Shown: positions 8,408-24,196, numbered from the stretch's first letter. The stretch: 30,787 nt of DNA from a virus (IMGVR_UViG_3300025645_000299:1-30787), one strand, 5' to 3'. Notes: generated by a model from the sequence alone, not told the origin. Program-made: numbers and translations.

Positions 8408-8836
8408 ATGAGAGAAACATACAGAATAGCAAAAGAAGTTAAAGACGTAACAGGTATAAACTTTTTACAAAAGAAAAGAGACCAAGAATATGTAGAAGCA
8501 AGATCATTTTTTGTACATATACTAAGACACTATTACAAACTACGTAATAAAGATATAATAAAGATATTCAACCAATTAGGTTTTAATATGGATAATGCAA
8601 CACTAACACACAGTATAAGAATGTTTGAAGTGTATGAACATAACAATGCAAGAATGAAAGAATGGTTCGATAACCTATTTGCTAAACCAGATTTTAAAAA
8701 CAGAGCAAACACAACTGCATATATAAAATCTAAACTAAAATACTTACCTGCAGATACACTAATGAAGATGGCAGCACAAATAGATACTATGGTAAAAGAT
8801 AAAGTGTTTTTAGATGAAAGTGAATGGACATATTAA
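8408..8836 (+). CDS. DnaA domain IV-like DNA-binding protein
   Basis: This 142-aa protein resembles the C-terminal DNA-binding domain of DnaA. The stretch YVEARSFFVHILRHYYKL, then RNKDIIKIFNQLGFNM, then NATLTHSIRMFEVY (A64-T65-L66-T67-H68) follows the DnaA signature of an Arg-containing helix, an Ile-Gly-type turn and the (D)HTTVLHA helix. There is no ATPase domain. The second half (FKNRANTTAYIKSKLKYLPAD) is helical and unknown. A likely role is origin recognition or control of transcription by binding DnaA-box-like sites. It is the last early gene: its stop codon is the start of the first late-type promoter motif. Confidence 0.66.
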   Translation: MRETYRIAKEVKDVTGINFLQKKRDQEYVEARSFFVHILRHYYKLRNKDIIKIFNQLGFNMDNATLTHSIRMFEVYEHNNARMKEWFDNLFAKPDFKNRANTTAYIKSKLKYLPADTLMKMAAQIDTMVKDKVFLDESEWTY

Positions 8837-8862
8837 AAAAAGTACGAAAAAAGTATTATATA
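8835..8862 (+). promoter_or_regulatory. late promoter motif copy 1 (terminase unit)
   Basis: Seven A (8835-8841, beginning inside the TAA stop of the preceding gene), a 12-base spacer, then TATTATATA (8854-8862). The overlapping octamer TATATTTG (8859-8866) also matches the host-type TAnnTTTG -7 element. The next start (GTG 8886) is 23 bases away, so in this copy the element sits apart from a start codon. That favours a promoter over a purely translational signal. Confidence 0.6.
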
Positions 8863-8885
8863 TTTGATTAATCAAGTTTTTTCAA

Positions 8886-9017
8886 GTGGCAAGAAAAGTA
8901 ATAAGTAACTATATATTTAAACCTAAAAAGAAAAGACCTGGTGTACATTCTAAGAATGCAAGTCGTAATCAAACAGGATTTAAAAAGAAATATAGAGGTC
9001 AAGGTAAAAGAAATTAA
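8886..9017 (+). CDS. small highly basic protein (43 aa), GTG start
   Basis: The only usable start in this frame is GTG at 8886, since an in-frame stop lies at 8865-8867. The product is rich in lysine and arginine, with KPKKKRPGVHSKN and GFKKKYRGQGKRN, and has almost no acidic residues. I recall proteins with the KKRPGVHxK and YRGQGR signatures from many Bacteroidota phages, often beside terminase or structural genes, with no known function. A nucleic-acid binding role is likely from charge alone. It lies two bases upstream of the small terminase gene and is the first gene behind promoter copy 1. Confidence 0.7.
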   Translation: MARKVISNYIFKPKKKRPGVHSKNASRNQTGFKKKYRGQGKRN

Positions 9018-9019
9018 TT

Positions 9020-9283
9020 ATGAGTTGGGGAGGTAAACGTATAGGATCAGGACGAAAAACAAAGTCACAAGAATTACAATTAATTGAGGAGCTATCAATG
9101 TATGATGGTTTAGCAGTTAAAACTTTAATAGACGGAATAAAAAAAGGATGCACTAAGTCATTACAATTATGGTTTAATTATAGATTAGGTAAACCTACAG
9201 AAACACAAAACGTAACGTTAGTTCAAGAGCAGCCGACTTATGAAGTTATCGTATTAGACAATGACTCAGAAAGTACAGACTAA
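9020..9283 (+). CDS. terS: small terminase subunit-like protein
   Basis: This 87-aa protein begins with GGKRIGSGRKTKSQ, the Gly-Arg-rich motif seen at the N-terminus of many terminase small subunits. A helical core (LAVKTLIDGIKKGCTKSLQL then WFNYRLGKPTE) of the usual type follows. It would recognise packaging sites and load the large subunit. It overlaps the large terminase gene by 23 bases, the standard arrangement. It is shorter than average for TerS, and the C-terminal end (VIVLDNDSESTD) is acidic and flexible. Confidence 0.8.
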   Translation: MSWGGKRIGSGRKTKSQELQLIEELSMYDGLAVKTLIDGIKKGCTKSLQLWFNYRLGKPTETQNVTLVQEQPTYEVIVLDNDSESTD

Positions 9284-10430
9284 TTGTATTTATAATCACG
9301 CCTATAAATTTAGTAGGTCAGATAAAAAAATCTTAATAGAACAAGGTGGTAGTAGAAGTGGTAAGACATTTAACTTACTAATATGGATTGTATTTGACTA
9401 TTGCGCTAATAACTCTAACACTATAATAACTATCTGTCGTAAAACATTTCCTAGTTTACGTGGTACAGTTATGCGTGACTTTTTAGATATACTAAAGAAC
9501 TATGAATTATATAGTGAGAAAGACCATAATAAGAGTAATAGCGAATACTATTTAAACAACAATACAGTAGAGTTTATATCATTAGATCAACCTGCTAAGA
9601 TACGTGGTAGAAAAAGAAACTTATTATTCGTAAATGAGTGTAATGAAATAGATTGGGATAGTTGGCAACAATTAATTTTTCGTACAGAAGGGCAAATTTT
9701 AATCGACTATAATCCTAGTGAGGCTAACCATTGGATATATGATAAAGTAGAAACTAGAGATGATGCTGTGTTTTATAAGACTACATATAAAGACAATCCA
9801 TTTATAGATAAAAACATAATACACGAACTAGAAAGACTTAAAGAAACAGATGATGAATATTGGCAAGTATTTGGTTTAGGTGAAAGAGCGCTATCAAGAA
9901 CACAGATATTTAGCTTTAGTACAATAAATAAAATACCAGAGGATGCTAAGTTCTTATCTATAGGTATGGACTTTGGTTATACAAATGATCCTACTTGTGC
10001 AGTAGAGGTATATCAGAAAGATCACAACTTATATATTAATGAATTACTTTATAGAACTATGATGACTACAGCAGACATACATAGATTCTTTCTAGAGCAT
10101 AATAAAGACAATAAGCTATGCTTTGGTGATTCAGCAGAAGTACGACTCATAGACGAGCTTAAAAGAATGGGAAACAATATAAGACCAAGTGTTAAAGGAC
10201 AGAATAGTATTATGGCTGGTATAGATCTATTAAAGCGATACAAACTACATATAACAGAAACATCTGTAAATGCTATAAAAGAGTTTAGAGATTATAGGTG
10301 GAAGAAAGATAAAGCTAATAGGTTAACAAACATACCTAATGATGGTGCTGATCACTTACCTGATGCAACCAGATATGCAACCTATAGTTTAATGAGCAAA
10401 CCTAACTATGGTAAGTATGCTATTCGTTAG
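9261..10430 (+). CDS. terL: terminase large subunit
   Basis: The DNA-packaging motor protein, 389 aa. ATPase part: Walker A GGSRSGKT (29-36), strand LLFVNEC with catalytic E126 (Walker B), and a coupling motif region around ILIDYNPSE. RNase H-like nuclease part: FLSIGMDFGYTNDPT with D237, LCFGDSAEVRL with D290, and DGADHLPDATRYA with D364 and D368. All catalytic residues are present. The length is at the lower end for the family. In most siphoviruses the portal gene follows directly; here portal lies about 13.8 kb downstream after tail and capsid genes. The last 11 bases overlap the end of a minus-strand gene. Confidence 0.95.
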   Translation: MTQKVQTNCIYNHAYKFSRSDKKILIEQGGSRSGKTFNLLIWIVFDYCANNSNTIITICRKTFPSLRGTVMRDFLDILKNYELYSEKDHNKSNSEYYLNNNTVEFISLDQPAKIRGRKRNLLFVNECNEIDWDSWQQLIFRTEGQILIDYNPSEANHWIYDKVETRDDAVFYKTTYKDNPFIDKNIIHELERLKETDDEYWQVFGLGERALSRTQIFSFSTINKIPEDAKFLSIGMDFGYTNDPTCAVEVYQKDHNLYINELLYRTMMTTADIHRFFLEHNKDNKLCFGDSAEVRLIDELKRMGNNIRPSVKGQNSIMAGIDLLKRYKLHITETSVNAIKEFRDYRWKKDKANRLTNIPNDGADHLPDATRYATYSLMSKPNYGKYAIR

Positions 10431-10572
10431 TACTTAATAACAAGTCTTGATAATCTAGAGCTTCTTGTTCGCTAGTAAATACTTTAGACTTTAATCTATT
10501 GTCTACAAACCATAAGAGTAAGAATGAATCTCTAGCTGCATTCGTAGTCAATTTTGTTTTAGTTATTTTCAT
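10420..10572 (-). CDS. lone minus-strand small protein (50 aa)
   Basis: On the minus strand an ATG (10572-10570) opens 50 codons ending TAG at 10420. The product MKITKTKLTTNAARDSFLLL continues with WFVDNRLKSKVFTSEQEALD and ends YQDLLLSTNE, a soluble-looking small protein with an amphipathic C-terminal helix. The whole plus-strand gap after the terminase gene is filled by this frame, and a host-type -7 element (TATATTTG, minus strand) sits four bases before the ATG. It converges on the terminase gene, so it could be transcribed from a host promoter at a different time. It is the only reverse-oriented gene supported here. No family recognised. Confidence 0.62.
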   Translation of the reverse strand: MKITKTKLTTNAARDSFLLLWFVDNRLKSKVFTSEQEALDYQDLLLSTNE

Positions 10573-10576
10573 AATT

Positions 10577-10584
10577 CAAATATA
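10577..10584 (-). promoter_or_regulatory. possible host-type promoter (-7 element) for the minus-strand gene
   Basis: Read on the minus strand the sequence is TATATTTG, a full match to the Bacteroidota TAnnTTTG consensus. It lies in an A/T-rich gap between two divergent genes. I could not see a clear TTG-type -33 element at the usual distance. It is so close to the ATG that transcription from it would give a very short or no leader. Confidence 0.35.
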
Positions 10585-10643
10585 AATAAAAAAAAGTTAT
10601 TAAATAATTTTGATAATTAAAATATAGTTATTAACTTAGAGGT

Positions 10644-10739
10644 ATGAAACAAAAATTATTAAACATATCATACGTATTAGTTATATGGTTTGCTGCTATA
10701 TTACTTGTAGTATTAGATAATATAATTACTAATCTATAA
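10644..10739 (+). CDS. small single-TM membrane peptide (31 aa)
   Basis: A 31-codon frame: MKQKLLNI, then a continuous membrane segment (SYVLVIWFAAILLVVL, about residues 9-24) and a polar end (DNIITNL). It ends in a TAATG overlap with the next small gene, which supports coupled translation. Positioned between terminase and the tail module; function unknown. Confidence 0.5.
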   Translation: MKQKLLNISYVLVIWFAAILLVVLDNIITNL

Positions 10740-10864
10740 TGGAAATAATAATAAACATATTTGCAGTTATAGGAGTATTTGCTACTGTGTTAGCATTATA
10801 TCATTTTGGTGTAGATCAATATGCTTTATGGGAGATGAGAATGAAAGAAAAATACGGTAAATAA
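10739..10864 (+). CDS. small membrane protein (41 aa)
   Basis: The start overlaps the previous stop (TAATG) and the stop overlaps the next start (TAATG). One N-terminal membrane segment at about residues 2-23 (EIIINIFAVIGVFATVLALY) is followed by a charged cytoplasmic-type tail (HFGVDQYALWEMRMKEKYGK). Together with the preceding 31-aa peptide it forms a pair of tiny membrane proteins. They could affect the envelope or superinfection, but nothing in the sequence decides this. Confidence 0.55.
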   Translation: MEIIINIFAVIGVFATVLALYHFGVDQYALWEMRMKEKYGK

Positions 10865-11076
10865 TGCAGAACAAATCCTATAGAGAAACAATGTTAGCTT
10901 TAAACTTAGTGTTTGGGCAATACGATATAGAATTCTTAAAACCATTAGATATATCACAGCTAGAAGATCTATTTATACAAGATGCATTTAGTAATCCAGA
11001 TAAGCATATTAATTACGAATTAAATAAAGACAATATTAATTTTAATATAATAAAAGAAGAACTTACATCTTCATAA
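10864..11076 (+). CDS. hypothetical protein (70 aa)
   Basis: A soluble acidic protein, mostly helical: SYRETMLALNLVFGQYDIEF, then ISQLEDLFIQDAFSNPDKHI, ending IIKEELTSS. It is coupled by TAATG to the small membrane protein upstream and is followed by a strong terminator, so it closes its transcription unit. No motif or family recognised. Confidence 0.6.
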   Translation: MQNKSYRETMLALNLVFGQYDIEFLKPLDISQLEDLFIQDAFSNPDKHINYELNKDNINFNIIKEELTSS

Positions 11077-11116
11077 TTCTTTTTTCAGAATATTTTTCAT
11101 ATTAATTGGTTTATAT

Positions 11117-11145
11117 AGGGAGTTAGAAGATGGCTCCCTTTTTTT
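11117..11145 (+). terminator. rho-independent terminator before the tail module
   Basis: Stem AGGGAGTT (11117-11124) pairs with GGCTCCCT (11132-11139), eight pairs including two G-T, with loop AGAAGAT, followed by a T tract to 11145. The next late promoter motif starts only four bases further on, so one unit ends and the next begins here. Confidence 0.85.
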
Positions 11146-11148
11146 GTG

Positions 11149-11175
11149 AAAAAAAGTTAAATTTGTTATTATATA
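11149..11175 (+). promoter_or_regulatory. late promoter motif copy 2 (tail module)
   Basis: Seven A (11149-11155), an 11-base spacer and TATTATATA (11167-11175), then three bases and the ATG at 11179. A host-type TAaaTTTG also lies at 11158-11165 within the spacer. The copy directly follows a strong terminator, which supports a promoter role. Confidence 0.7.
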
Positions 11176-11178
11176 TTT

Positions 11179-11841
11179 ATGAAGCTCCAAATAAATGTGC
11201 CGACAGATCTAAACGAGATAACATTAGGTCAATATCAGAAGTTTATTAAAATACAAAAAGATAACGGTGATGGTACGTTTGTAGCACAAAAGATGATAGA
11301 GATATTTTGTGGCATAGATCTTAAAGATACTTTTAAAATTAAGATTACAGATATGAACGAAATAATCAAAATACTAAACGACTTACTAGAAATAAAACCT
11401 GAACTAATAAATCGCTTCGAAATGGATAATGTAGCATATGGGTTTATACCTGTATTAGAAGATATATCATTAGGTGAATATGTAGACATAGAAAACTATA
11501 TGCAAGACTGGGATAATATGCATAAAGCAATGAGCGTATTATATAGACCAATTGCTGCTGCACATAGAGATAAATACAATATAGAAGAATACGATGGTAA
11601 GGAAACCGAAGTAATGAAAGATATGCCTTTAGATATATGTTTTAGTGCGGTGGTTTTTTTTTACAATTTAGGGATCGAGTTATCAAGCAATATGATGGAT
11701 TATTTGACGGAGGAACAGTTGAGCAACCTTACGGAAGGTCAGCACAGTTTTCTAAGCGATGGGGGTGGTATTCAGCAATTTACGAACTCGCTCAAGGACG
11801 TATTACTGAATTCGAAAATATCACTCAAGAAAAATTATTAA
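11179..11841 (+). CDS. tail assembly chaperone (0-frame product, gpG-like)
   Basis: A 220-aa soluble protein opening the tail module. The body (MKLQINVPTDLNEITLGQYQ, then LINRFEMDNVAYGFIPVLED, then SVLYRPIAA) resembles tail assembly chaperones I recall from Bacteroidota siphophages. These coat the tape measure before tube assembly and are not in the virion. In the middle of its 3' part lies a run of nine T (11654-11662) from which a second, conserved-looking frame continues to 11921 in the -1 frame, the hallmark of lambda G/GT-type chaperones. The 0-frame C-terminus after the run (LSSNMMDYLTEEQLSNLTEG) also looks protein-like, so this stretch is dual coding and visibly richer in G and C. Confidence 0.76.
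   Translation: MKLQINVPTDLNEITLGQYQKFIKIQKDNGDGTFVAQKMIEIFCGIDLKDTFKIKITDMNEIIKILNDLLEIKPELINRFEMDNVAYGFIPVLEDISLGEYVDIENYMQDWDNMHKAMSVLYRPIAAAHRDKYNIEEYDGKETEVMKDMPLDICFSAVVFFYNLGIELSSNMMDYLTEEQLSNLTEGQHSFLSDGGGIQQFTNSLKDVLLNSKISLKKNY
11655..11661 (+). promoter_or_regulatory. programmed -1 ribosomal frameshift site (slippery T TTT TTT)
   Basis: In the 0 frame the codons are GTT TTT TTT TAC. The heptamer T-TTT-TTT allows both tRNAs to re-pair one base back. After the slip, translation continues TTA CAA TTT AGG for 86 codons. The -1 frame is open only from 11646, just before the run, and contains no ATG, GTG or TTG codon, so it can hardly be reached except by frameshifting. I did not work out a downstream stimulatory structure. 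Confidence 0.78.
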
Positions 11842-11921
11842 AGTCATTAAATGTATTATTATATATTAAAGAGAAAAACGAAGTAGAACAAGCAGAATTA
11901 AAAGCAAATGCCAGAAAGTAA
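11661..11921 (+). CDS. tail assembly chaperone, -1 frame extension (gpT-like part of a gpGT fusion)
   Basis: Read in the -1 frame after the T run, this adds 86 residues to the first 161 of the chaperone, giving a 247-aa fusion. The extension contains FSKRWGWYSAIYELAQGRIT and FENITQEKLLKSLNVLLYIK, the (K/R)WGWY-x-x-(I/L)Y-x-LAxGD/R-type pattern known from T-domains of Bacteroidota phage chaperones. It ends 14 bases inside the next gene, consistent with coupled translation. In lambda, the minor GT product binds tape measure and tube protein while G alone binds the tape measure. The same division of labour is inferred here. Confidence 0.75.
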   Translation, partial: LQFRDRVIKQYDGLFDGGTVEQPYGRSAQFSKRWGWYSAIYELAQGRITEFENITQEKLLKSLNVLLYIKEKNEVEQAELKANARK

Positions 11922-12384
11922 CACAGCGATAAGATCATATTATTTAATAAGCGAAGCATTAGAAAGCTCATTACTAAACAACAATATTACTAAGACAGTT
12001 ACAATAGGTGATGTATCTGATGTAGACTTAGGTAAACAAACTATATTTCCTCTAGCACATTTTATAGTAAACAATGTAGTGTCAACACAACAAACACTTG
12101 TATATAATATTACAGTACTTGTAATGGATATTAAAGATGTAAGTAAATCTGAAGAAACAGATAAGTTTAGAAAGAACACAGATGAACAAGATATACTTAA
12201 CACACAACTAGGAGTGCTAAATTTATTAATACAAAAATTACGGTTTGGAGATTTACACACATCAGGTTATAGATTAACTAACGATCCTACTTGTGAACCG
12301 TTTGTAGATAGGTTTGAAAATAACTTAGCAGGGTGGAGTGCGGATATTAATATAGAGGTTAAAAACGATCAATACATATGTTAG
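11908..12384 (+). CDS. tail completion/terminator-like protein
   Basis: A 158-aa soluble alpha/beta protein. Stretches such as TIFPLAHFIVNNVVSTQQTL, VLVMDIKDVSKSE, EQDILNTQLGVLNLLIQKL and CEPFVDRFENNLAGW match a conserved neighbour of chaperone genes that I recall from marine Bacteroidota siphophages. By length, fold pattern (helix, strands, long helix, strands) and position it fits a tail terminator (gpU-like) or a minor tail protein. The ATG lies within the end of the chaperone -1 frame, and the 3' end overlaps the next gene by seven bases. Confidence 0.65.
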   Translation: MPESNTAIRSYYLISEALESSLLNNNITKTVTIGDVSDVDLGKQTIFPLAHFIVNNVVSTQQTLVYNITVLVMDIKDVSKSEETDKFRKNTDEQDILNTQLGVLNLLIQKLRFGDLHTSGYRLTNDPTCEPFVDRFENNLAGWSADINIEVKNDQYIC

Positions 12385-12956
12385 TATTTTCAGATAAGTT
12401 TAATGAAAGGTTAGAAGAATTTTTTTTAGCTGTTAAGAAACAAGCTAGACAGAACCTTAGTAAAGGTACAAAACTGCAAAGAAAGAAGCGACCTATAAAC
12501 AATACTAAAAGACTTTACAATAGTATAAAATATGAAAAGTTAATACAAAATGAAAGAACATTAGCTTATGGTTTGTTAATGGAAGATTATGGTGATTTTA
12601 TAGATCAAGGTGTAAAGGGTACTAAAAGTAATTATAGAGTAAATAAGAATACACCATTTAAATATTCAACTAAATTTCCGCCTTTTAAAGCAATAGGCAA
12701 ATGGGCAAAAGCAAAGAATATAAGATTTAGAGATGCACAGGGTAAGTTTAAAAAAGGAGATTATAATTCTATTGGATATGTAATTGCAAAATCAATATTT
12801 GAAAAAGGTATTAGAGCAAACAACTTTTATACAATACCCTTCGTAAATGAGTATAAAAAATTACCAAATGATTTACAAAACATATTTGCAGACGATATGA
12901 TAATATTAATGATAGATAGTATGATAGAATCAGATTTAATTAAAAAAGGAATATAA
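12378..12956 (+). CDS. HK97 gp10-like tail completion protein
   Basis: A 192-aa basic protein. The N-terminal helix (FNERLEEFFLAVKKQARQNL), TGxL-like region (TKRLYNSIKYEKL), ALAYGLLMEDYGDFIDQG-like element and the late part (FYTIPFVNEYKKLPND) follow the HK97 gp10/gp10-like family, which connects head completion and tail. The central insertion (FPPFKAIGKWAKAKNIRFRD) is typical of the longer version found in Bacteroidota phages. It sits between the gpU-like protein and further tail genes, and its stop overlaps the next ATG by one base. The call rests on pattern recognition, not an alignment. Confidence 0.62.
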   Translation: MLVFSDKFNERLEEFFLAVKKQARQNLSKGTKLQRKKRPINNTKRLYNSIKYEKLIQNERTLAYGLLMEDYGDFIDQGVKGTKSNYRVNKNTPFKYSTKFPPFKAIGKWAKAKNIRFRDAQGKFKKGDYNSIGYVIAKSIFEKGIRANNFYTIPFVNEYKKLPNDLQNIFADDMIILMIDSMIESDLIKKGI

Positions 12957-13984
12957 TGGCAAATATATTATTAAGAAGTCCGTATTACGAAACACATAGT
13001 CAACCATATGTTAATCCTGATGTAGCTAAAAGTGCTACACTTGTATTATCGGTAGATGGTACACAAATATCTGAAATGAGTAAAGATACTGTGCTTTCAG
13101 GTACAAGTGGTCAAGAAACAGGAACTGTAGCTTTTGAGATAGCAGATCTATGTAGAGATTATATAGATGTAACATTTAACAATTCTTACACTAGTCAGAC
13201 TATTTCAATAACAGGTACACTTACATTTAAAAGTGAAACAGTCGATGATATAAATACAGGTAGCACACCTAGTACTGTAGGAACACCAGTTAGTATTTCT
13301 CACAAAGGTTTAGATGGTTACTATGAATTTATGGAAGGTTTAGGTACAGGAAATACACCACCTAATAGTGCTAAAACAATAGCAGTAACACAAGACGAAA
13401 TATTACAAGACAACACACAGTTATATTATCCTGATAATACTGCAGGAGTAATACCTTATTTTGATTATAATACTTCAGCAATAGTATATGATACGTTTAG
13501 TACTTCAGCAATAAGTAAAACTACATTATCAACTACCTTTACAATAAATAGAGTTTGTAATAAACACACAGCATATAAGGTTACATTTGTAAATAAGTAT
13601 GGTGCTTTACAAGATTTTTATTTTAATGGTAAAACAACAGAAAACATTAATGTAAATAAAACTACATTTAAAAGAAACATAGGGAATAGTAGTTTTGAAT
13701 ATAATAAACAAAAACATTCTATAAGACAGTTTAATACTTTAGCAAATGAAAAACTTATACTAAATACGCCACCTATGAGTTATGACAATGTAAACGAAGC
13801 TATTAAACAATTATTAGTTAGTGAGCAAGTATGGATAAGAAAAGTAGAAGGCGGATCAGAACAAACAGTACCAATCAATATAACCGATACACAACAAACA
13901 TTTAAAACAGGTGTAAACGATAAAGTAGTACAATATACAATTACTGCAGAGTATGCCTTTGATATGATAAGTAATATTAGATAA
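12956..13984 (+). CDS. tail/baseplate structural protein, beta-rich (342 aa)
   Basis: The protein is beta-rich and low in charge, with many Thr and Ser residues. It starts MANILLRSPYYETHSQPY, continues with TLVLSVDGTQISEMSKDTVL, and has a section CNKHTAYKVTFVNKYGALQD followed by FYFNGKTTEN that recurs in marine Bacteroidota phage structural proteins as I remember them. The order chaperone, completion proteins, this protein, then a very large tail protein suggests a distal tail or baseplate component. The name of the family is not known to me. Stop and next start overlap (TAATG). Confidence 0.6.
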   Translation: MANILLRSPYYETHSQPYVNPDVAKSATLVLSVDGTQISEMSKDTVLSGTSGQETGTVAFEIADLCRDYIDVTFNNSYTSQTISITGTLTFKSETVDDINTGSTPSTVGTPVSISHKGLDGYYEFMEGLGTGNTPPNSAKTIAVTQDEILQDNTQLYYPDNTAGVIPYFDYNTSAIVYDTFSTSAISKTTLSTTFTINRVCNKHTAYKVTFVNKYGALQDFYFNGKTTENINVNKTTFKRNIGNSSFEYNKQKHSIRQFNTLANEKLILNTPPMSYDNVNEAIKQLLVSEQVWIRKVEGGSEQTVPINITDTQQTFKTGVNDKVVQYTITAEYAFDMISNIR

Positions 13985-16900: not shown

Positions 16901-18258
16901 GAACTAAGCAATATGACTTTGGAAGTTCTGAAAGTATATTAGCTAATACTACATATTACTATTGGGGAACAGCTACAAATCAATACAGCTCAACAAAAGG
17001 TGTATCTAGTACTTACGAAACAGTTGTAACAACCACAGCACCATCTGCGCCATCAGTAGAAACACAAACAGAAAGTAGTGTAACATCTACAAGTTTTACG
17101 GGTAATATAAACATAACAAATGATAATGGTGCTAGTATAACAAGTGCAGGTATTTGGATGGGAACTAATAGTTCAGCTTATAATGCAGCAGGAAATACTT
17201 TTTATAATATATCTACTACATCTACAGGAGTTAAATCATTAAACTTTACAAGTCTTACTGGTAATACAACTTATTATTATTGGGGATCAGCAACTAATAG
17301 TGCAGGTACAACTATATCAACAGCATATGAAACAGTAACAACGCCTCTGCAAACATATCCTTATATAGTTTATTATAACAATACAAGCGCTTATTATGCT
17401 TGTGTAGTTAGTAGTACAAGCACATATTATTCTACATCATCAAGTTGGGCGGCAGGAATAACATTATATACTGATTCAGCGGCTACAACTTTAGCGCCTG
17501 ACGGGTGGTATAGATATAACCCAAATACATACAATGAAATTAGCGGAGGTAACGGAGTATTGGGAACACAACAAAATTGTAATTTAGATGTACAAAGATT
17601 AAGAATAACAACAGCATATCCTAGTACAAATTTTTATGATATAACAACAGCATTTAATTCTACATTAAGCACAACTAAACTATTATGGACTACTATACCA
17701 GTTACAGGGGGAAGTAGAGTTTATACAGATGAAAACCTAACAACACCTGTTACATATGGTTTAGGAACATTTAAAACTTTACACACATATCCACAAGATT
17801 ATAAATATCAACTATATCCAGATCAAGCATTTTTTGCAGCAAAGATTCAAAGATATAATACAAGTACTCAACAATGGTATGATTATCAATCTCAATACAC
17901 ACAGTTCTGGCAATTAGATAGTAATGGTTATATAGAAAGAGTTTATTGGAATTATGATAATGGTGATTTATACTATGACAGCGTTAACCCATCTACAGCA
18001 GGTTTATCTGGTATTAAAATATCAAGCACAGGTAGTAGCGATGCAACAACTGCTTGTGGTACTACACCAAGTACAATAGTTTATTACGATGAAACTACTT
18101 TAGGCAATAATACAGTATTATATACAGATTCTAGAGATGCAGGAGAAAGTACTGCTAATAATAAATTTAATGGTGGTGGTAACTGGTATAAGTTTGAAAA
18201 TAACTATAGAGCGCAAATAAGTAGCAGCGGTGTAGTATCTAATTATGCAAGTTGTTAA
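13984..18258 (+). CDS. large tail/baseplate protein with Fn3-like and Cys-framed modules (1424 aa)
   Basis: The largest protein of the window. The first 720 residues form a tail/baseplate-type body (NNIELYVKQFGDDNYTRLDL, then GKIFTNFSKTFSLPASKTNN, then ILGDRKLQDLDFLDEFDLTF), a start I recall from Bacteroidota phage tail proteins. After the body come surface modules: a Cys-framed module at about 749-808 (ACGYTLDTTVYYTG ... VSNYQPC); three Fn3/Ig-like repeats of about 100 residues each (about 809-1120, each with a TTYY(V/Y)(T/W) strand motif); a related Cys module around 1123-1200; and a last Cys-framed copy at the C-terminus (ACGTTPSTIVYYDETTLGNN ... VSNYASC). Modular ends of this kind usually contact host surface glycans or proteins. 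Receptor binding is inferred. Confidence 0.75.
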   Translation: MNNIELYVKQFGDDNYTRLDLFKDETISLTQTIQDVKDPGKIFTNFSKTFSLPASKTNNKFFKHYQNFIQSQDFSYDARKKSIAKIELNSLPYQKGKLRLEGVDLKNGRPDTYRITFFGELDLKEILGDRKLQDLDFLDEFDLTFTAANVKSGLTSSTGTGNIVGSDGETYTTPTLVSLIGNSMRGFYDNVNTTPSYWDFAKQEINISGGNLAANNSAQYSGYYWKDLVYSIRLYVIVKAIENSIKDTAGNKQIIFSNDFFNTTNTGFYNLYMLCQRNAGKILEGFGSSYTPNKQSLKSYANANNNHPNNLFLDTKIFTIRNLTSSQQFQFAITVNFTSITGYAYVDLRDKSSNTIVTTFNFNANGQRSFSIGNGRYELIFRADNAGVVVQDFKFDLIGLFGTYQTTSITTGNVDAGFTIPSQAFTIRNNIPDIKIIDFLTGLFKMFNLTAYKEDGKIYVDTLDSYYTSGTLRDVTEYTDSTTRSVDKALPYREIDFKYEDTNNILAKNHKEQFQSDWGSAAYNDDGSLDSNNTVYEIMLPFQHMKFEKLTTGLQVGHLLDDKQAPYLGKPVIYYPIYSTVANTGESPTQINFIEEINGYDSGSTNTTTGISSYWIPSNTPAILNTGAGYPESIHFNVEINEWNNSSAYTDTLFQKYYNSYITNVFRFNERLTKIKAKLPLSFLQQYTLADELQIGDFTYRINSITTNLQTGESSLELLNGSEAVVSSGVGSISITISASNSTTPSTACGYTLDTTVYYTGILGNTTQLFTDSALTTSYTGSGNFHSFPGSNYGTIDTNGYVSNYQPCPTQAPTMTTSSASNVTYQSFTANGSLDVANGTVTEKGFYIGTSPTYTNNTPKVVVSGTFTGSYLYNKTSSVSGNTTYYVTAYAINEHGEGIGTTVSLTTPSAPVPPTVSALTEQNVTYTGFTARLEITSDGGDTIDGAGFYMGVNSAAATNNPHYDISPAPTSIGTKQYDFGSSESILANTTYYYWGTATNQYSSTKGVSSTYETVVTTTAPSAPSVETQTESSVTSTSFTGNINITNDNGASITSAGIWMGTNSSAYNAAGNTFYNISTTSTGVKSLNFTSLTGNTTYYYWGSATNSAGTTISTAYETVTTPLQTYPYIVYYNNTSAYYACVVSSTSTYYSTSSSWAAGITLYTDSAATTLAPDGWYRYNPNTYNEISGGNGVLGTQQNCNLDVQRLRITTAYPSTNFYDITTAFNSTLSTTKLLWTTIPVTGGSRVYTDENLTTPVTYGLGTFKTLHTYPQDYKYQLYPDQAFFAAKIQRYNTSTQQWYDYQSQYTQFWQLDSNGYIERVYWNYDNGDLYYDSVNPSTAGLSGIKISSTGSSDATTACGTTPSTIVYYDETTLGNNTVLYTDSRDAGESTANNKFNGGGNWYKFENNYRAQISSSGVVSNYASC

Positions 18259-18283
18259 AAAAATAAAATAAAGTTATTATATA
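18257..18283 (+). promoter_or_regulatory. late promoter motif copy 3 (tape measure unit)
   Basis: Seven A (18257-18263, starting within the TAA stop of the preceding gene), an 11-base spacer and TATTATATA (18275-18283), then three bases and the ATG at 18287. Same layout as the other copies. Confidence 0.66.
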
Positions 18284-18286
18284 TAT

Positions 18287-18436
18287 ATGTTACATAGCAT
18301 AATCGAATTATTGAAGTACTCTAAAAGCAAAAGCGAGAATGTACAAATAGCTAAAGGTAAATATAAACTACCTAGTAGTGTAAAAGAAGCGTATAACCAA
18401 TTTAAACAAGAGCTTAAATGGCAGAAAAAAGGGTAG
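18287..18436 (+). CDS. small basic protein upstream of tape measure (49 aa)
   Basis: A 49-codon frame that directly follows promoter copy 3 at the fixed three-base distance. This is good support that it is translated. The product (MLHSIIELLKYSKSKSENVQ, then IAKGKYKLPSSVKEAYNQFK, then QELKWQKKG) is helical and lysine-rich. Its 3' end overlaps the tape measure start by 19 bases. A small gene in this place could aid tape-measure expression or folding; no family recognised. Confidence 0.62.
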   Translation: MLHSIIELLKYSKSKSENVQIAKGKYKLPSSVKEAYNQFKQELKWQKKG

Positions 18437-20184
18437 TAGAATTAGAAGTACAGGTACAGGAAGTAATAAAGAACTTACAAGAGATAAAAGAGTCTTTTGC
18501 GGCTGTAAAAGAAAGTGTAGATAGTGTAGAAAAAACAGGAAAAGACACAACTAAAAAATTAAGTGATGGTTTTAGTGGTGTAAGATCTGCTGTAGTAGGT
18601 GTAGGTGATGCATTAAGTTTTATAGGTCTTACTTTAAAAACTTTAGGTATTAGTTTAATTATAGAAGCATTTGCAACATTTAAACAAATATTAGTACAAA
18701 ATCAAAGAGTTGCTGATTTATTTTCTAAATCTTTTACATTTATTACAACAGTATTCAACGATTTTGTTGATTTAGTTTTAAATAATTCTCAACCTATAAT
18801 TAATTTCTTTAAACAAATATTTGAGGATCCAATAGGTTCAATAAAAGATTTTGGTAATGCAATATTAGAAAATTTAACAGAAAGGTTTAATAGTTATTTA
18901 GAAACTTTAGGTTTTGTAGCTAGTGCAGTTAAAAAAGTATTTAGTGGTGATTTTGCAGGTGCCTTAAATGACATAAAAAGTGCAGGTAAAGAAGCTGTAG
19001 ATGTATTAACTGGTGTAGATGGTACTGTAGATAAAGTAGCAAAAGTGTTACCAAATGTAACAAAAGCTGTAAAGGATTATGTAACTGAAACAGCAAACGC
19101 AGCATCGGCTCAAATAGATTTAGCAAATAGTGCAAAATTAGCATCTGCACAACAAGAATTATTAAGAATACAAAATTTAAAAGCCGCTGAAGAACAAAGA
19201 CAAATAAGAGATGACACTACAAAAAGTATTGAAGAAAGAATACAGGCAAATGAAAAATTAGGAAAAATACTTGAAGAAGGTTTAGAACAAGAAAAAGTAT
19301 TAGCAGAAGCTCAATTAGCAGCTGCTCAAGCAGCATTAATTAATAATGAAACAAATTTAGATTTACAAGCTGAATTAGTACGAGCGCAAGCCTCAGTATT
19401 AGATGTAGAAGAAAGAATTGGTGGTCAAAGATCAGAACAATTAACAAATGAAGCAGGGTTATTAAGAGAAAAACTAGATTTACAAAATGCTGAAATAGAT
19501 AGACGAAATGAAATTAATAGATTAGATTTAGAAGGTCAATTAGCTGTAGAAGATGGTATATTAGATAGATTAGAATTAGAAAGGCAACTTGCTGAACAAG
19601 AATTAAATATTGCTAATGAAAGATTAGAAAATACTAAAGCTATATTTGGAGAAGGAACTGTTGAATATGAAAATGCTTTAGCAGAGAGAGATGCTGCAGA
19701 AAAAAGATATAATAATTCTAGTGTTAAAAATGAAAAACTAGTAGCAGAAGCAAAAAGAAAAATTGTTGCAGATGCATTAGGTGGTCTATCGCAATTATTA
19801 GGAGAAAACACTGTAGCAGGTAAAGCTGTTAGTATTGCTCAAGCAATTATAAATACATATGAAGGTGCTACTAAAGCATTAGGTCAAGGTGGTATATTTG
19901 GTGGTATTGCAGCTGCAGGTGTAATAGCGTCAGGTTTAGCAACTGTTAAAAAAATAGTAGCAACTAAAATACCAGGAACAAGTGATACAGCAGCAGCTCC
20001 TGGATTACAAAATACAATACAACAAGCGTTACCACCAGCATTTAATGTAGTTGGAGCATCACCTATAAACCAAATTTCACAAGCATTAAACAACCGTGAA
20101 CCAGTTAAAGCATATGTAGTGTCAAGTGATGTAACTACAGCACAGCAATTAGATAGAAATATAATTAGTGAAAGCGGAATATAA
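18418..20184 (+). CDS. tail tape measure protein
   Basis: A 588-aa protein with the tape-measure outline. It has a helical N-terminal coil (ELEVQVQEVIKNLQEIKESF), a hydrophobic membrane-like region (about 55-100: VVGVGDALSFIGLTLKTLGI then SLIIEAFATF), a long Ala/Glu/Gln-rich coiled coil (about 220-450) and an Ala/Gly-rich hydrophobic region near the C-terminus (about 455-520: IFGGIAAAGVIASGLATVKK). Tape measures set tail length; at the usual about 0.15 nm per residue this one predicts a tail near 90 nm, an estimate only. It is separated from the chaperone gene by four tail genes, whereas the two are usually adjacent. The start is inside the small gene upstream. Confidence 0.85.
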   Translation: MAEKRVVELEVQVQEVIKNLQEIKESFAAVKESVDSVEKTGKDTTKKLSDGFSGVRSAVVGVGDALSFIGLTLKTLGISLIIEAFATFKQILVQNQRVADLFSKSFTFITTVFNDFVDLVLNNSQPIINFFKQIFEDPIGSIKDFGNAILENLTERFNSYLETLGFVASAVKKVFSGDFAGALNDIKSAGKEAVDVLTGVDGTVDKVAKVLPNVTKAVKDYVTETANAASAQIDLANSAKLASAQQELLRIQNLKAAEEQRQIRDDTTKSIEERIQANEKLGKILEEGLEQEKVLAEAQLAAAQAALINNETNLDLQAELVRAQASVLDVEERIGGQRSEQLTNEAGLLREKLDLQNAEIDRRNEINRLDLEGQLAVEDGILDRLELERQLAEQELNIANERLENTKAIFGEGTVEYENALAERDAAEKRYNNSSVKNEKLVAEAKRKIVADALGGLSQLLGENTVAGKAVSIAQAIINTYEGATKALGQGGIFGGIAAAGVIASGLATVKKIVATKIPGTSDTAAAPGLQNTIQQALPPAFNVVGASPINQISQALNNREPVKAYVVSSDVTTAQQLDRNIISESGI

Positions 20185-20211
20185 AAAAAACAACAATAAA
20201 TATATTATATA
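20183..20211 (+). promoter_or_regulatory. late promoter motif copy 4 (head module, protease)
   Basis: Eight A (20183-20190, starting in the tape measure TAA stop), a 12-base spacer and TATTATATA (20203-20211), then three bases and the ATG at 20215. Confidence 0.66.
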
Positions 20212-20214
20212 ATT

Positions 20215-21231
20215 ATGAAGATAGTAGAACTTATTTTAGACGAAGAACAAGAGTATTCAGGTATTGAAGCTATATCTATTGTAGAGAAACCAGCTATTGA
20301 AGAAGATTTTATTACACTTAACGCTGATGTAGAATATAAATTAGCGCAAGTAGATGATGAAAAAAGAATATTACTTGGAGCGTTACTAATACCTAATAAA
20401 CCTATACTTAGAGTTAACGAAGAAGGCGAATACTATATATATTTTAGTAAAGATACAGTTCGTAAAGCAAGCGAATTATATTTAATGGAAGGTAACCAAA
20501 ACAATGCAACACTAGAACACCAAATGCAACTAAAAGGTTTAAGTTTGGTAGAATCGTGGATAGTAGAAGATCAACAAAAGGATAAAACTGCTTTTTATGG
20601 TTTAAAATACCCAGTAGGTACTTGGGTAGGTAGTGTTAAAGTAAATAGCGAGAAAGTATGGCAAGAATTTGTTAAAACAGGTGCCGTAAAAGGTTTTTCA
20701 ATAGAAGGCTATTTTCAAGATAAGTCTACATATAGAAAAGACGAGTTAAATGCTATAGAAATAGAAGAAGCAGAGTATTTATTATCTACTTTAAAAGATA
20801 TTGTTAATGGTTTAGAGGTTACACTAGAAAGTTATAACGATTACCCAGATTCTGTTGCAAATAACGCTAAAAGAGGTATAGAACTTAACGAAAAGGTAAA
20901 TAATAAGTGTGCAACTGATGTAGGTAAGATAAGAGCGCAACAATTAGCTAAAAAAGAAAAGATAAGTACTGAAACAATAAAAAGAATGTATAGTTATTTA
21001 TCTAGAGCAGAAGAATACTATGATGAAAGCGATACAACTGCTTGTGGTACTATAAGTTACTTACTATGGGGTGGTAAATCTGCTAAAAGTTGGGCAGAAG
21101 CTAAAATGAAAGAATTAGATTTAGCTATTGAAAAAGAATTAAAAGAACCTTGTCAAGCAGGATACGAAATGATAGGGTTTAAAATTAAAAATGGTAAAAA
21201 AGTACCTAACTGTGTCCCAATAAAAAAATAA
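20215..21231 (+). CDS. prohead protease (XkdF/S78_2-like) with C-terminal extension domains
   Basis: The first about 190 residues match the putative phage serine protease XkdF family (Peptidase_S78_2): IEAISIVEKPAIEEDF at the start, then TLEHQMQLKGLSLVESW with catalytic-type H102, and VKGFSIEGYF with S162. The enzyme would process scaffold and capsid during head maturation. A second domain at about 210-315 (SVANNAKRGIELNEKVN, then GKIRAQQLAKKEKISTETIK, then ISYLLWGGKSAKSWAEAKM) resembles one seen fused to phage proteases and cyanophage head proteins. The tail (CQAGYEMIGFKIKNGKKVPN then CVP) is another recurring phage module. It lies just upstream of scaffold and capsid, as expected for its role. 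Confidence 0.84.
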   Translation: MKIVELILDEEQEYSGIEAISIVEKPAIEEDFITLNADVEYKLAQVDDEKRILLGALLIPNKPILRVNEEGEYYIYFSKDTVRKASELYLMEGNQNNATLEHQMQLKGLSLVESWIVEDQQKDKTAFYGLKYPVGTWVGSVKVNSEKVWQEFVKTGAVKGFSIEGYFQDKSTYRKDELNAIEIEEAEYLLSTLKDIVNGLEVTLESYNDYPDSVANNAKRGIELNEKVNNKCATDVGKIRAQQLAKKEKISTETIKRMYSYLSRAEEYYDESDTTACGTISYLLWGGKSAKSWAEAKMKELDLAIEKELKEPCQAGYEMIGFKIKNGKKVPNCVPIKK

Positions 21232-21232
21232 T

Positions 21233-21265
21233 ATGTGTAACTGCGAAACTTGTATTTGTAAATAA
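21233..21265 (+). CDS. 10-aa Cys-rich peptide (candidate)
   Basis: An ATG one base after the protease stop opens MCNCETCICK then TAA, and the stop overlaps the following gene's ATG (TAATG). Four of ten residues are cysteine in a C-x-C-x2-C-x-C pattern, which could bind a metal ion. The exact fit between two genes is the main support; the length is too small for statistics, and it may be only a translational relay for the next gene. Confidence 0.4.
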   Translation: MCNCETCICK

Positions 21266-21408
21266 TGCCAAAGAAAGATAAACATTATAAAACACCTAGT
21301 AGAACGTCACCTAAAGGTGCTAGAAGGGCTTGTTTGTGTCCAGATAATACTTATAGTCGTAAATGCTGCGATGGTTCATTAGAAGCGCAGGGAATAGGTC
21401 GTATCTAA
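21265..21408 (+). CDS. conserved small Cys-rich phage protein (47 aa)
   Basis: The protein has a basic N-terminus (MPKKDKHYKTPSRTSPKGAR) and a conserved C-terminal half with CLCPDNTYSRKCCDGSLEAQ then GIGRI. I recall the C(L)C-x(7-9)-CCDGSLxAQGIG pattern from many marine Bacteroidota phage genomes, always as a very small protein near structural genes. Four cysteines (C23, C25, C34, C35) suggest a zinc or disulfide mini-domain. Function unknown. It is followed by 21 bases before promoter copy 5. Confidence 0.72.
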   Translation: MPKKDKHYKTPSRTSPKGARRACLCPDNTYSRKCCDGSLEAQGIGRI

Positions 21409-21429
21409 AATTTCTTTAACACAAAATGT

Positions 21430-21456
21430 AAAAAAATATCGTGTATTCATTATATA
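21430..21456 (+). promoter_or_regulatory. late promoter motif copy 5 (scaffold and capsid)
   Basis: Seven A (21430-21436), an 11-base spacer and CATTATATA (21448-21456; one mismatch to TATTATATA), then three bases and the ATG at 21460. It would drive scaffold and major capsid, ending at the terminator near 23051. Confidence 0.62.
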
Positions 21457-21459
21457 GTT

Positions 21460-22083
21460 ATGAATGCTACAGAGATATTATCAAAGGTCAAAACTTTATT
21501 AGGTGTTGATCCTAATAATGTAGACATAAAATTAGAACAAATTTCTTTAGAAGAAATAACTCTGGAGAACGGTACTGTGCTAACTGCTGATAAGTTTGAA
21601 TCAGGTAGCGAAGTATTTATTAAAACAGAGGATCAGAATGTTCCCTTACCTATTGGTGAGTATGAACTTTCAGACAATAGAATATTAATCGTTAAAACAG
21701 AAGGTATGATAGAAGATATCAAAAATTCAGAAGAAGTAGTAGAAGAAACTGCAGCGGCAGTAGAAGATACTAACCTTGAAGAAGCACCAGTTCAGGAAGA
21801 AGAAAAATCTGAAATGGGTTATGCTACTAAAGAGGAACTTACAGCTTTAGCAGAATCTGTTGAAGAAGTAAAAGAGCAAATCAAAGGACTTATCGATGCT
21901 ATATCAAGCGATAAGGAAAAAGAGGAAATGTCACAGCAAGAAGAATTATCTAAACCTGCGGCAGAAGGCATTAAACATTCACCTGAAAACGTAGAAGAAA
22001 AATTAGGTGCAAAGTTTGCAGTTAACTCTAATCAAAACACTACCTATGGTAGAGTATTACAAGCAATTTCTAACAATAATTAA
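21460..22083 (+). CDS. capsid scaffold-like protein
   Basis: A 207-aa acidic protein directly before the major capsid gene. The first about 90 residues are a small beta-rich domain (TLENGTVLTADKFESGSEVF). The middle is very glutamate-rich and helical (EEVVEETAAAVEDTNLEEAP, then ELTALAESVEEVKEQIKGLI), typical of scaffolding proteins, and the C-terminal 30 residues (KLGAKFAVNSNQNTTYGRVL) may be the part that contacts the capsid. Role by composition and position: shaping the procapsid and being cleaved by the upstream protease. No sequence family is recognised. Confidence 0.72.
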   Translation: MNATEILSKVKTLLGVDPNNVDIKLEQISLEEITLENGTVLTADKFESGSEVFIKTEDQNVPLPIGEYELSDNRILIVKTEGMIEDIKNSEEVVEETAAAVEDTNLEEAPVQEEEKSEMGYATKEELTALAESVEEVKEQIKGLIDAISSDKEKEEMSQQEELSKPAAEGIKHSPENVEEKLGAKFAVNSNQNTTYGRVLQAISNNN

Positions 22084-22090
22084 TTAAATA

Positions 22091-23026
22091 ATGGCAACAA
22101 CAACTTCAATAACAACAACGTATGCTGGAGAATTTGCAGGGAAGTATATTTCAGCTGCTCTATTATCTGGTAAAACACTAGCAGAAGGTAACATATCTAT
22201 TGTACCTAATGTTAAGTTTAAACAAGTAATGAAAAAAGTAGCAACGGATGCAATCGTAAAAGATGCAACTTGTGACTTTACAGATACTTCAACACTAACT
22301 TTAACTGAAAGAATTCTACAACCAGAAGAATTTCAGGTAAACTTAGAGTTATGTAAAAAAGACTTTAGATCAGACTGGGAAGCAGTATCAATGGGATATT
22401 CTGCATTTGATAACTTACCTCCTAAGTTTTCTGACTTTTTAATTGCTCACGTAGCAGATAAAGTAGCTCAAAAAATGGAACAAAACATTTGGACAGGTAC
22501 TAATGCAACTGCAGGAGAGTTTGATGGTTTCATCACAACTTTAGGTGCAGATGGTGACGTAAACGATGTAGTAGGGCAAGCATCTACGAGCGCAAACGTA
22601 ATCGATGAACTTGCTAAAATTGCTGACGCTATTCCAACAGCAGTATATGGTGCAGAAGATTTAAATATCTACTTACCATCTAATATGTACAGAAACTATA
22701 TTAGAGCTTTAGGTGGATTTGGTGCAGCAGGTTTAGGTGCAGCAGGTACTAACGCTCAAGGTACTCAATGGTACAACAACGGTAATGCATTATCATTCGA
22801 TGGAATTAAAGTAGTTAACGCTCCTGGACTTTCAGATAATGATGCAGTAGCAGCTCAAGCAAGTAACTTATTCTTTGGAACTGGATTAATGTCAGATCAA
22901 AACGAAGTTAAAGTAATTGATATGGCTGATTTAGATGGATCTCAAAACGTAAGAGTAGTAATGAGATTTACAGCTGGTATTCAGCACGCAATCGGTGGTG
23001 ATATCGTATTATACGCTACAGCGTAA
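22091..23026 (+). CDS. major capsid protein
   Basis: A 311-aa protein following the scaffold. Features of an HK97-fold capsid protein include an N-terminal Thr-rich arm (ATTTSITTTYAGEFAGKYIS), a section TERILQPEEFQVNLELCKKD, then FLIAHVADKVAQKMEQNIW (spine-helix-like), a Gly/Ala-rich loop (GGFGAAGLGAAGTNAQGTQW) and a final strand pair (VRVVMRFTAGIQHAIGGDIV). Its codon use is more balanced in C-ending codons (AAC, TTC, GTA) than neighbours, as usual for a highly expressed gene. A strong terminator follows 24 bases after the stop. I infer the fold from pattern and position; no structure was computed. Confidence 0.87.
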   Translation: MATTTSITTTYAGEFAGKYISAALLSGKTLAEGNISIVPNVKFKQVMKKVATDAIVKDATCDFTDTSTLTLTERILQPEEFQVNLELCKKDFRSDWEAVSMGYSAFDNLPPKFSDFLIAHVADKVAQKMEQNIWTGTNATAGEFDGFITTLGADGDVNDVVGQASTSANVIDELAKIADAIPTAVYGAEDLNIYLPSNMYRNYIRALGGFGAAGLGAAGTNAQGTQWYNNGNALSFDGIKVVNAPGLSDNDAVAAQASNLFFGTGLMSDQNEVKVIDMADLDGSQNVRVVMRFTAGIQHAIGGDIVLYATA

Positions 23027-23050
23027 GTAAAATAATAGTATAACTTAAAA

Positions 23051-23086
23051 AGGGTAGGTGGCATTTTACTACCTACCTTTTTTTTT
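23051..23086 (+). terminator. rho-independent terminator after the major capsid gene
   Basis: Stem GGTAGGTGG (23053-23061) pairs with CTACCTACC (23069-23077), nine pairs including a G-T, loop of seven, then T tract to 23086. Outer A-T pairs extend it. No late promoter motif lies between it and the next ATG (23102), so the tail tube gene must rely on read-through or an unseen promoter. Confidence 0.85.
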
Positions 23087-23101
23087 AAAATAAAATAAAT
23101 T

Positions 23102-23674
23102 ATGGCTTGTGCATTAACAACAGGAAGGCAGTTACCTTGTAAAGAATCAGTTGGTGGATTAAGTAAAGTATATTTTGCAGATTATGGTACATTAGGTACA
23201 GCAACAATATCTGCAGGTAATATATCTGCTTTATCAGGAACACCATCTTTTTTTGAATACGATTTAAAAGGTGCGACTAGCTCTTTAACAACAAATATTA
23301 TAAGCTCTAGAGATACAGGTACAACAGTATATGAATCTACATTAGAGTTAACATTTACACATTTAGATGTGGCAACTCAAGAGGAAATTAAACTTCTAGC
23401 AGCTGCAAGACCACACGTTGTAATAAAAGACAACAATTCAGTACAGTCAGGTACAATGGATCCTGACACAGTAGATGCTAATTATCTAATGGTTGGTTTT
23501 CATCAAGGTGCTGAAGTTACAGCAGGTACAATTGTAAGTGGAGCAGCATATTCTGACTTGAGTGGATTTACTTTGACATTTACAGCTACAGAAGTAATAC
23601 CTCCGTTATTCGTAACAGGAACGGTAGTTACTGCGCTAGCTTCTGGTAATCCGCAAATAAATCCAACTTCATAA
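23102..23674 (+). CDS. major tail (tube) protein candidate
   Basis: A 190-aa beta-rich protein between capsid and portal genes: MACALTTGRQLPCKESVGGL, then SKVYFADYGTLGTATISAGN, EYDLKGATSSLTTN, and late strands with SDLSGFTLTFTATEVIPP. The pattern of strands with conserved Gly and Thr, absence of long helices and size are those of siphovirus tail tube proteins, which pile up in many copies. Location between two terminators suggests separately tuned expression. No direct family match can be claimed. Confidence 0.68.
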   Translation: MACALTTGRQLPCKESVGGLSKVYFADYGTLGTATISAGNISALSGTPSFFEYDLKGATSSLTTNIISSRDTGTTVYESTLELTFTHLDVATQEEIKLLAAARPHVVIKDNNSVQSGTMDPDTVDANYLMVGFHQGAEVTAGTIVSGAAYSDLSGFTLTFTATEVIPPLFVTGTVVTALASGNPQINPTS

Positions 23675-23699
23675 CAGTTTTTTGTTTTTGTGTGTTTTT

Positions 23700-23727
23700 A
23701 AAGGGGAGTTTTTAACTTCCCTTTTTT
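23700..23727 (+). terminator. rho-independent terminator after the tail tube gene
   Basis: Stem AAAGGGGAGTT (23700-23710) pairs with AACTTCCCTTT (23714-23724), eleven pairs with one G-T, loop TTT, followed by T to 23727. A TATTATATA copy (23727-23735) starts at its very end, followed by the late promoter copy 6. Confidence 0.88.
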
Positions 23728-23734
23728 ATTATAT

Positions 23735-23761
23735 AAAAAATATATTTTTTTTTATTATATA
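23735..23761 (+). promoter_or_regulatory. late promoter motif copy 6 (portal unit)
   Basis: Six A (23735-23740), a 12-base spacer that is almost all T, and TATTATATA (23753-23761), then three bases and the ATG at 23765. A second TATTATATA at 23727-23735 precedes it directly after the terminator. Confidence 0.66.
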
Positions 23762-23764
23762 TGT

Positions 23765-24196
23765 ATGAAGATTTTAACAACTAGTACTTCAGCACAAACT
23801 TTAACCTTTGCACCGAGATCATATCCGTCAGAGGTAATTGTATCAATTAGAGATACTAGTACTAACACAACAACAAGAACTGAAAACGTTTCATTATCAA
23901 AATCAAACGATAATGCATCTATATCTACTACGTTTAGTTTAGTAGAAGGTAGGTTTTATGATTTAAAAATATTAGAAGGTGTAGGTGCGCTCTGGAACAC
24001 TTACAATGTAATATGGGAAGCAGCAACCGATAATTGGGAAAGTATAACAACTTCTGAAACAAGTATTTATTTAGATAAGATATTTTGTACAGACCAAACT
24101 ATAAATCAAGCTGACAATGACTATTATACTATTAATAGCGGACAATACACACAAACAACTAATTATCCAGATGATGATTATATAATAATAAACTAA
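23765..24196 (+). CDS. small structural protein, unknown (143 aa)
   Basis: A 143-aa beta-rich protein: MKILTTSTSAQTLTFAPRSY, then EVIVSIRDTSTNTTTRTENV, FSLVEGRFYDLKILEGVG, and an acidic, Tyr-rich end (TNYPDDDYIIIN). Proteins with the SxxxTFxPR and EGxFYxLxIxEG pattern occur next to portal genes in marine Bacteroidota phages as I recall. It may be a head decoration or joining protein. The last base of its stop is the first base of the portal ATG, so the two are probably coupled in translation. Confidence 0.65.
   Translation: MKILTTSTSAQTLTFAPRSYPSEVIVSIRDTSTNTTTRTENVSLSKSNDNASISTTFSLVEGRFYDLKILEGVGALWNTYNVIWEAATDNWESITTSETSIYLDKIFCTDQTINQADNDYYTINSGQYTQTTNYPDDDYIIIN

Follow-up and report, generated by a model that had tools for sequence, protein, structure and literature searches.

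A two-box motif ahead of the morphogenesis genes of an uncultured tailed phage: candidate late promoters for a phage-encoded ECF-like sigma factor

The stretch of DNA studied here is an IMG/VR virus record of 30,787 bases (IMGVR_UViG_3300025645_000299, 31% G+C, hereafter the window), and the question it raises is why a bipartite motif, a run of A followed at a fixed distance by the nonamer TATTATATA, stands six times in front of its morphogenesis genes. The original prediction, made from the sequence, was that the motif is a candidate promoter of late genes only and plausibly has a dedicated recognition factor, and this is the best-supported reading of our results. We put the probability at roughly 85% that the six motifs serve a marine Bacteroidota tailed phage as late promoters, read by an extracytoplasmic function (ECF)-like sigma factor of the phage itself and used mostly for leaderless starts. 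The computed results are the strand, gene and spacing specificity of the sites, their register at -12, the homology of the sigma and the co-change of promoter type with sigma lineage. The late timing, the start sites and the role of the protein encoded at 4951-5508 as the factor reading the boxes are what we infer from the sequence.

Position and specificity of the motif

The candidate promoters and the hairpins next to them are the following; promoters 2 to 6 are each backed by the pattern, by orthologous copies and by a weight matrix.

8835-8865, + strand: late promoter 1 (terminase unit), A7-N12-TATTATATA-TTT, with a putative start at G8866; kept in all clade-A relatives
11117-11139, + strand: terminator-like hairpin upstream of late promoter 2 (hairpin scan)
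11149-11178, + strand: late promoter 2, predicted leaderless at ATG 11179
18257-18286, + strand: late promoter 3, predicted leaderless at ATG 18287 (open reading frame (ORF) of 49 amino acids, then the tape measure protein)
20183-20214, + strand: late promoter 4, predicted leaderless at ATG 20215 (protease-like ORF)
21430-21459, + strand: late promoter 5 (CATTATATA), predicted leaderless at ATG 21460 (scaffold-like ORF, then a capsid-like protein at 22091)
23700-23724, + strand: terminator-like hairpin upstream of late promoter 6 (hairpin scan)
23735-23764, + strand: late promoter 6, predicted leaderless at ATG 23765 (small ORF, then the portal protein)

A pattern search of the window recovered all six copies where they had been predicted, and the details of their layout held as well. 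The distance from the A-run to the nonamer, described as 11 or 12, measures 12, 11, 11, 12, 11 and 12 in order along the window, and in five of the six copies the nonamer ends exactly 3 nucleotides (nt) before ATG. Three A-runs begin within a TAA stop codon (8834-8836, 18256-18258 and 20182-20184, as read from the sequence), the copies at 11149 and 23735 lie behind the two best terminator-like hairpins of the stretch scanned, and the copy with one mismatch (21430) has CATTATATA in place of TATTATATA. A further hairpin with a T-run, at 23030-23101 upstream of the gene at 23102, is present in most relatives; as no late promoter box follows it, partial read-through or processing is likely there.

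The pattern A5-N10-16-TATTATATA is found at five places in the window, all on the + strand (15 overlapping matches), while shuffled sequences gave a mean of 0.14. The excess over shuffled sequence holds for the two-box pattern but not for the nonamer by itself, which is at chance level (85 matches with at most one mismatch, 77 expected). Since the nonamer alone is not enriched, the information of the motif is in both boxes, their spacing and their place before ATG. A weight matrix trained solely on 20 sites of other phages ranks the six window sites as the six highest (27.0, 24.8, 23.7, 23.3, 21.8 and 17.4, the next best being 13.3 at 10610); the weakest of them (21460) falls inside the range of shuffled maxima (9-18), and its orthologous copies are conserved. 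No comparable score occurs in the early region, in agreement with the earlier observation that all six copies precede morphogenesis units and none is early.

The relatives show the same specificity. Among 154 related loci all 92 matches of the motif are on the coding strand and none is on the opposite strand, about 2 matches being expected, and in 59 of the matches the nonamer ends 3 nt before ATG. The sites stand before the same late genes in eight relatives (G001-G007 and G020) whose proteins are down to 57-65% identical, i.e. the motif is conserved where the coding sequences have diverged. The run of six to eight A residues holds for the window copies but is not a strict rule in the relatives, some of which have TAAA and then T-rich sequence. 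In a more distant relative, G005, the nonamer without an A-run is found ahead of an early-region HNH gene.

A set of 37 sites from different genes of nine records shows no variation at positions -11 to -6, and all of them have T at -1. Note that these sites were chosen by the box itself, so that the invariance of the box columns is in part a product of this choice, while T at -1 and the A-run are free of it. T at -1 is present in 37/37 motif genes as opposed to 31% of 286 others, and A at -3, a positive determinant of translation in Flavobacterium johnsoniae (PMC6847099), in 38% of the motif genes as opposed to 72% of the others. An enrichment of k-mers by position relative to ATG, made blind to the motif, puts ATTATAT (-11) and TATTATA (-12) among the strongest signals of this clade; other clades have different ones, namely CGTTATA, GTTATAT or TTATTGT.

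A candidate sigma factor and its co-change with promoter type

A dedicated recognition factor had been thought plausible, and the early region of the window does encode a suitable protein, to the lineage of which the promoter type keeps.

4951-5508, + strand: candidate recognition factor, a divergent ECF-like sigma of 185 amino acids (sigma2 and sigma4) with a GTG start, in the early region; from family profiles, a fold model and co-change

The best match of the family profile in PDB is an RNA polymerase sigma factor (1h3l, E 7e-4), and 22 of the 34 family members match Pfam Sigma70_r2, 28 match the PHROG RNA polymerase sigma factor and five show weak matches to Sigma70_r4_2. The model of the window protein has sigma2-like and sigma4-like helices (helices at 107-122, 127-137, 142-149 and 153-173), and its leading PDB matches in Foldseek are ECF sigmas, with a probability of up to 1.00 over alignments of about 170-180 columns. 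The family profile thus provides the sigma2 homology that is typical of the ECF-like class, and the model predicts a sigma4 helix-turn-helix with neither sigma1.1 nor sigma3. The gene was found in 20 of 21 records, and P12024S_33 of Nonlabens phage P12024S, located near the terminase, is annotated as Sigma-70 region 2. A scan of the genome collection for the sigma gene yielded two loci, of which one, in a Bacteroidia metagenome-assembled genome, is a 26% match. No phage RNA polymerase was found among the window proteins scanned against PHROGs, and no anti-sigma was identified for the phage sigma. A 55-amino-acid protein (5462-5629) overlaps the 3' end of the sigma gene and is present in 17 of 21 records, usually adjoining sigma; it has no family match and is a possible sigma partner.

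The relation between sigma and promoter was followed in 76 loci of related phages in which sigma, terminase and a promoter of assigned type are all present. The promoters, at the same gene positions, fall into seven recurring types, with an eighth in a single phage:

Types T1 to T4: T1 TATTATA; T2 CGTTATA; T3 GTTTATATAT; T4 TATTGT
Types T5 to T8: T5 (A/G)GTTATnTA; T6 TTATTATTATA; T7 TTAATTATAA; T8 TTGATATATA

Where a locus has at least two typed sites, the type is uniform in 37 of 39 cases. The types require seven changes on the sigma tree, which is the minimum, as opposed to 13 on the tree of the terminase large subunit (TerL), and the partial correlation of promoter with sigma given TerL is 0.62, that of promoter with TerL given sigma 0.01. 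Keeping one row per 70% sigma cluster gives 8 changes on the sigma tree and 12 on the TerL tree. Sigma pairs that are at least 60% identical share their type in 213 of 214 cases, and in all 77 cases in which TerL is less than 60% identical. Phages L191 and L355 are an example of a natural swap: with terminases 77% identical and sigmas 35% identical, each has a promoter of its own type immediately ahead of the terminase. In many pairs (L191, L355, L241, L246 and others) the identity of TerL disagrees strongly with that of sigma, and terminase genes appear to have been exchanged among these phages. Given the sequences, the protein encoded at 4951-5508 is a strong candidate for the factor that reads the boxes.

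Predicted starts and alternative explanations

Counted from the A of ATG, the hexamer TATTAT begins at exactly -12 and a T occupies -1; five units should therefore be transcribed as leaderless mRNAs from the start codon. The same register, with the first base of the -10 box 12 nt before that A, holds for the majority of unique sites in types T1, T2, T4 and T5 (a few T4 counts at 42-45 are false matches of the regular expression in T-rich runs). The -7 element of F. johnsoniae likewise spans -12 to -5 and leaves 4-5 nt to the start site (PMC6847099), which together with the fixed register makes the A of ATG the expected +1, with a pyrimidine at -1 and a purine at +1.

The terminase unit would be arranged differently. 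Its transcription should start at a conserved G, leaving a leader of about 20 nt, and the leader TTGA(T/A)TAATCAA...TTTTTCAA is common to phages of types T1, T2, T4 and T6 despite their differing promoter boxes.

8864-8886, + strand: conserved leader TTGATTAATCAAGTTTTTTCAAG of the terminase unit, holding the perfect 12-bp palindrome TTGATTAATCAA; near-invariant across T1, T2, T4 and T6
8886-9017, + strand: basic protein of 43 amino acids with a GTG start, first gene of the terminase unit; the equivalent start in relatives is GTG, TTG or ATG
9261-10430, + strand: TerL (tblastn to annotated phage terminases)

The putative small terminase subunit in between (9020-9283) is 51-57% identical in most clade-A relatives; the adjoining TerL, at 81-94%, is far less variable. 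The gene that ends at the terminase promoter (8408-8836) encodes a protein with a weak match to the DNA-binding C-terminal part of DnaA (E 0.0026), and its TAA stop overlaps the A-run. This DnaA-like protein was considered as the recognition factor and rejected, as it was not found in clades C and D.

The mechanism we propose is as follows. Host RNA polymerase with a host sigma would transcribe the early region, including the gene of the phage ECF-like sigma at 4951-5508. The phage sigma would then bind the host core polymerase and recognise an upstream A-rich box centred near -28 together with a -10 box at -12 to -4. In five units the first transcribed base would be the A of the start codon, which gives leaderless mRNAs; in the terminase unit it would be a G about 20 nt ahead of the first gene.

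The explanation that survives best besides this one, although we regard it as improbable, is that the motifs are host-type promoters for the primary sigma of Bacteroidota (-33/-7, TTTG/TAnnTTTG), perhaps with help from an activator of the phage, for instance the DnaA-like protein. F. johnsoniae promoters also have T-12, A-11 and AT-rich sequence near -28 (PMC6847099), and the terminase copy holds TATATTTG at 8859. However, T-8 T-7 T-6 G-5 is missing in the other five copies, the full TAnnTTTG at -12 to -5 is lacking there and in relatives of types T2 and T5, and before the same genes of related phages -12/-11 reads CG, GG or otherwise. The window has no excess of TAnnTTTG (50 found, 52 expected), the proposed activator was not found in clades C and D, and the promoter type tracks the phage sigma. 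As host promoters of the TAnnTTTG or TTG-N19-TAnnTTTG form were at chance level in the window and were rejected, early promoters are not assignable; an Escherichia coli-type sigma-70 scan of the window scored below its shuffles.

Less probable by about half is a signal for translation initiation or mRNA processing at the starts of units. It would account for the five copies that abut ATG at a constant distance, in a phylum without Shine-Dalgarno sequences (PMC6847099), but the terminase copy is about 20 nt from the first start codon, the A-3 context of the motif genes is poor, most other genes of these phages lack the motif, and the upstream A-rich box goes with it. Moreover, in types T3 and T6 the spacing between the boxes is constant while ATG is up to 12 nt (about 10-12 nt) farther downstream; the box pair moves as a unit, which is the behaviour of a promoter and not of a translation signal. 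Chance AT-rich repeats retained through common descent of the flanking genes, to which the low G+C content and the unenriched nonamer might point, have a negligible probability, as they are already contradicted by the shuffles (0.14 expected), the strand count (92 to 0), the matrix and the invariance of -11 to -6 over different genes of nine records.

Several points speak against late promoters read by the phage sigma. The window's own sigma has no direct significant match in Pfam or PHROG, so that its assignment depends on the family, and the fold model has modest Foldseek E-values (best 4.4e-3), low to modest template modelling (TM) scores and a pTM of 0.41. The start sites and the binding and activity of the sigma are predicted from sequence alone, and the five sites abutting ATG would, judged from the window only, leave room for a translational role. 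The promoter types were set by regular expressions written after inspection, and two labels (G012, mislabelled because of a background TATTATA upstream, and G018) were corrected by eye; the co-change is unchanged after dropping these two rows. Sigma and promoter also share a phylogeny, and the permutation p-values and co-change tests ignore kinship. Finally, the contrast is weaker with the directly downstream gene (orthologues of 11179: 7 changes for sigma, 10 for the gene, partial correlations 0.35 and 0.32), as one would expect of a promoter linked in cis, and orthologues of 11908 require as many changes as sigma (6 and 6).

Relation to known systems and meaning

The gene set of the window is that of a tailed phage (TerL, tape measure, protease-like and portal proteins, endolysin, holin). 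The host is likely a member of the Bacteroidota, as the closest cultured relatives by the capsid-like protein (32% identical) are Nonlabens phages P12024S and P12024L, and is probably of the marine Flavobacteriia. At the orthologous protease start of these two phages the TATTATATA box was not seen, and CGTTACTATAGTATG is there. Megablast of the whole window against phage records gave no match, nor did Rfam.

Phage sigmas that take the host core polymerase to late genes are known from phiEco32 (gp36) and Salmonella phage 7-11 (gp47); the late promoters of the two are at similar genome positions and have different sequences (tAATGTAtA and GTAAtg-16-aCTA), and independent acquisition of the sigmas was inferred by the authors (PMC8948821). 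As in those systems, the promoters described here stand ahead of late genes and are absent from early genes (except for the G005 nonamer), and a phage-encoded sigma accompanies them, as its presence in 20 of 21 records and the co-change indicate. Phage 7-11 is the closer in having bipartite promoters and a sigma with region 4, as predicted for the window sigma. The hosts and the sequences are different, and here one family of homologous sigmas has diversified in step with its promoters, of which there are at least seven types. The similarity to T4 gp55 is looser: a small divergent phage sigma, a TATA-like late promoter and relatives whose box opens with a different dinucleotide, such as a/gC at -13/-12 in Aeh1 (PMC2988020). 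However, gp55 resembles sigmas in domain 2 only, works without a -35 element and uses the sliding clamp (PMC2988020), while the window system differs from the gp55 type in its predicted sigma4 and its upstream A-rich box, and is not known to require a clamp. With the ECF (group IV) sigmas SigR, SigL, SigH and RpoE the window protein shares the sigma2 plus sigma4 layout and the profile and fold matches, but it is a phage gene product, and its boxes are AT-rich and closer together. The T2 box CGTTATA recalls the CGT-type -10 elements of ECF sigmas.

The kind of mechanism is thus already known. New are the group of Bacteroidota phages in which it is met, the leaderless start predicted for most units, and the many promoter types matched to members of one homologous sigma family. 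No description of late promoters in this phage group was found in the literature searched, subscription journals being mostly outside its scope. We think it rather probable that the late regulon of a large family of Bacteroidota phages is leaderless, the promoter of the ECF-like sigma being fused to the start codon in the -12 register. On this reading the specificities of sigma and promoters would have been switched jointly on six or seven occasions at the least, with the result that an imported terminase gene has a promoter to fit the sigma already resident in the phage.

The motif is then a candidate switch of late genes in a group of marine phages that is abundant and uncultured. The matched sigma-promoter pairs are a natural series in which to see how the specificity of a sigma shifts jointly with that of several scattered promoters, and a source of orthogonal promoters for Bacteroidota. 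The predicted leaderless mRNAs for virion proteins are relevant to the translation of such messages in a phylum that initiates without Shine-Dalgarno sequences.
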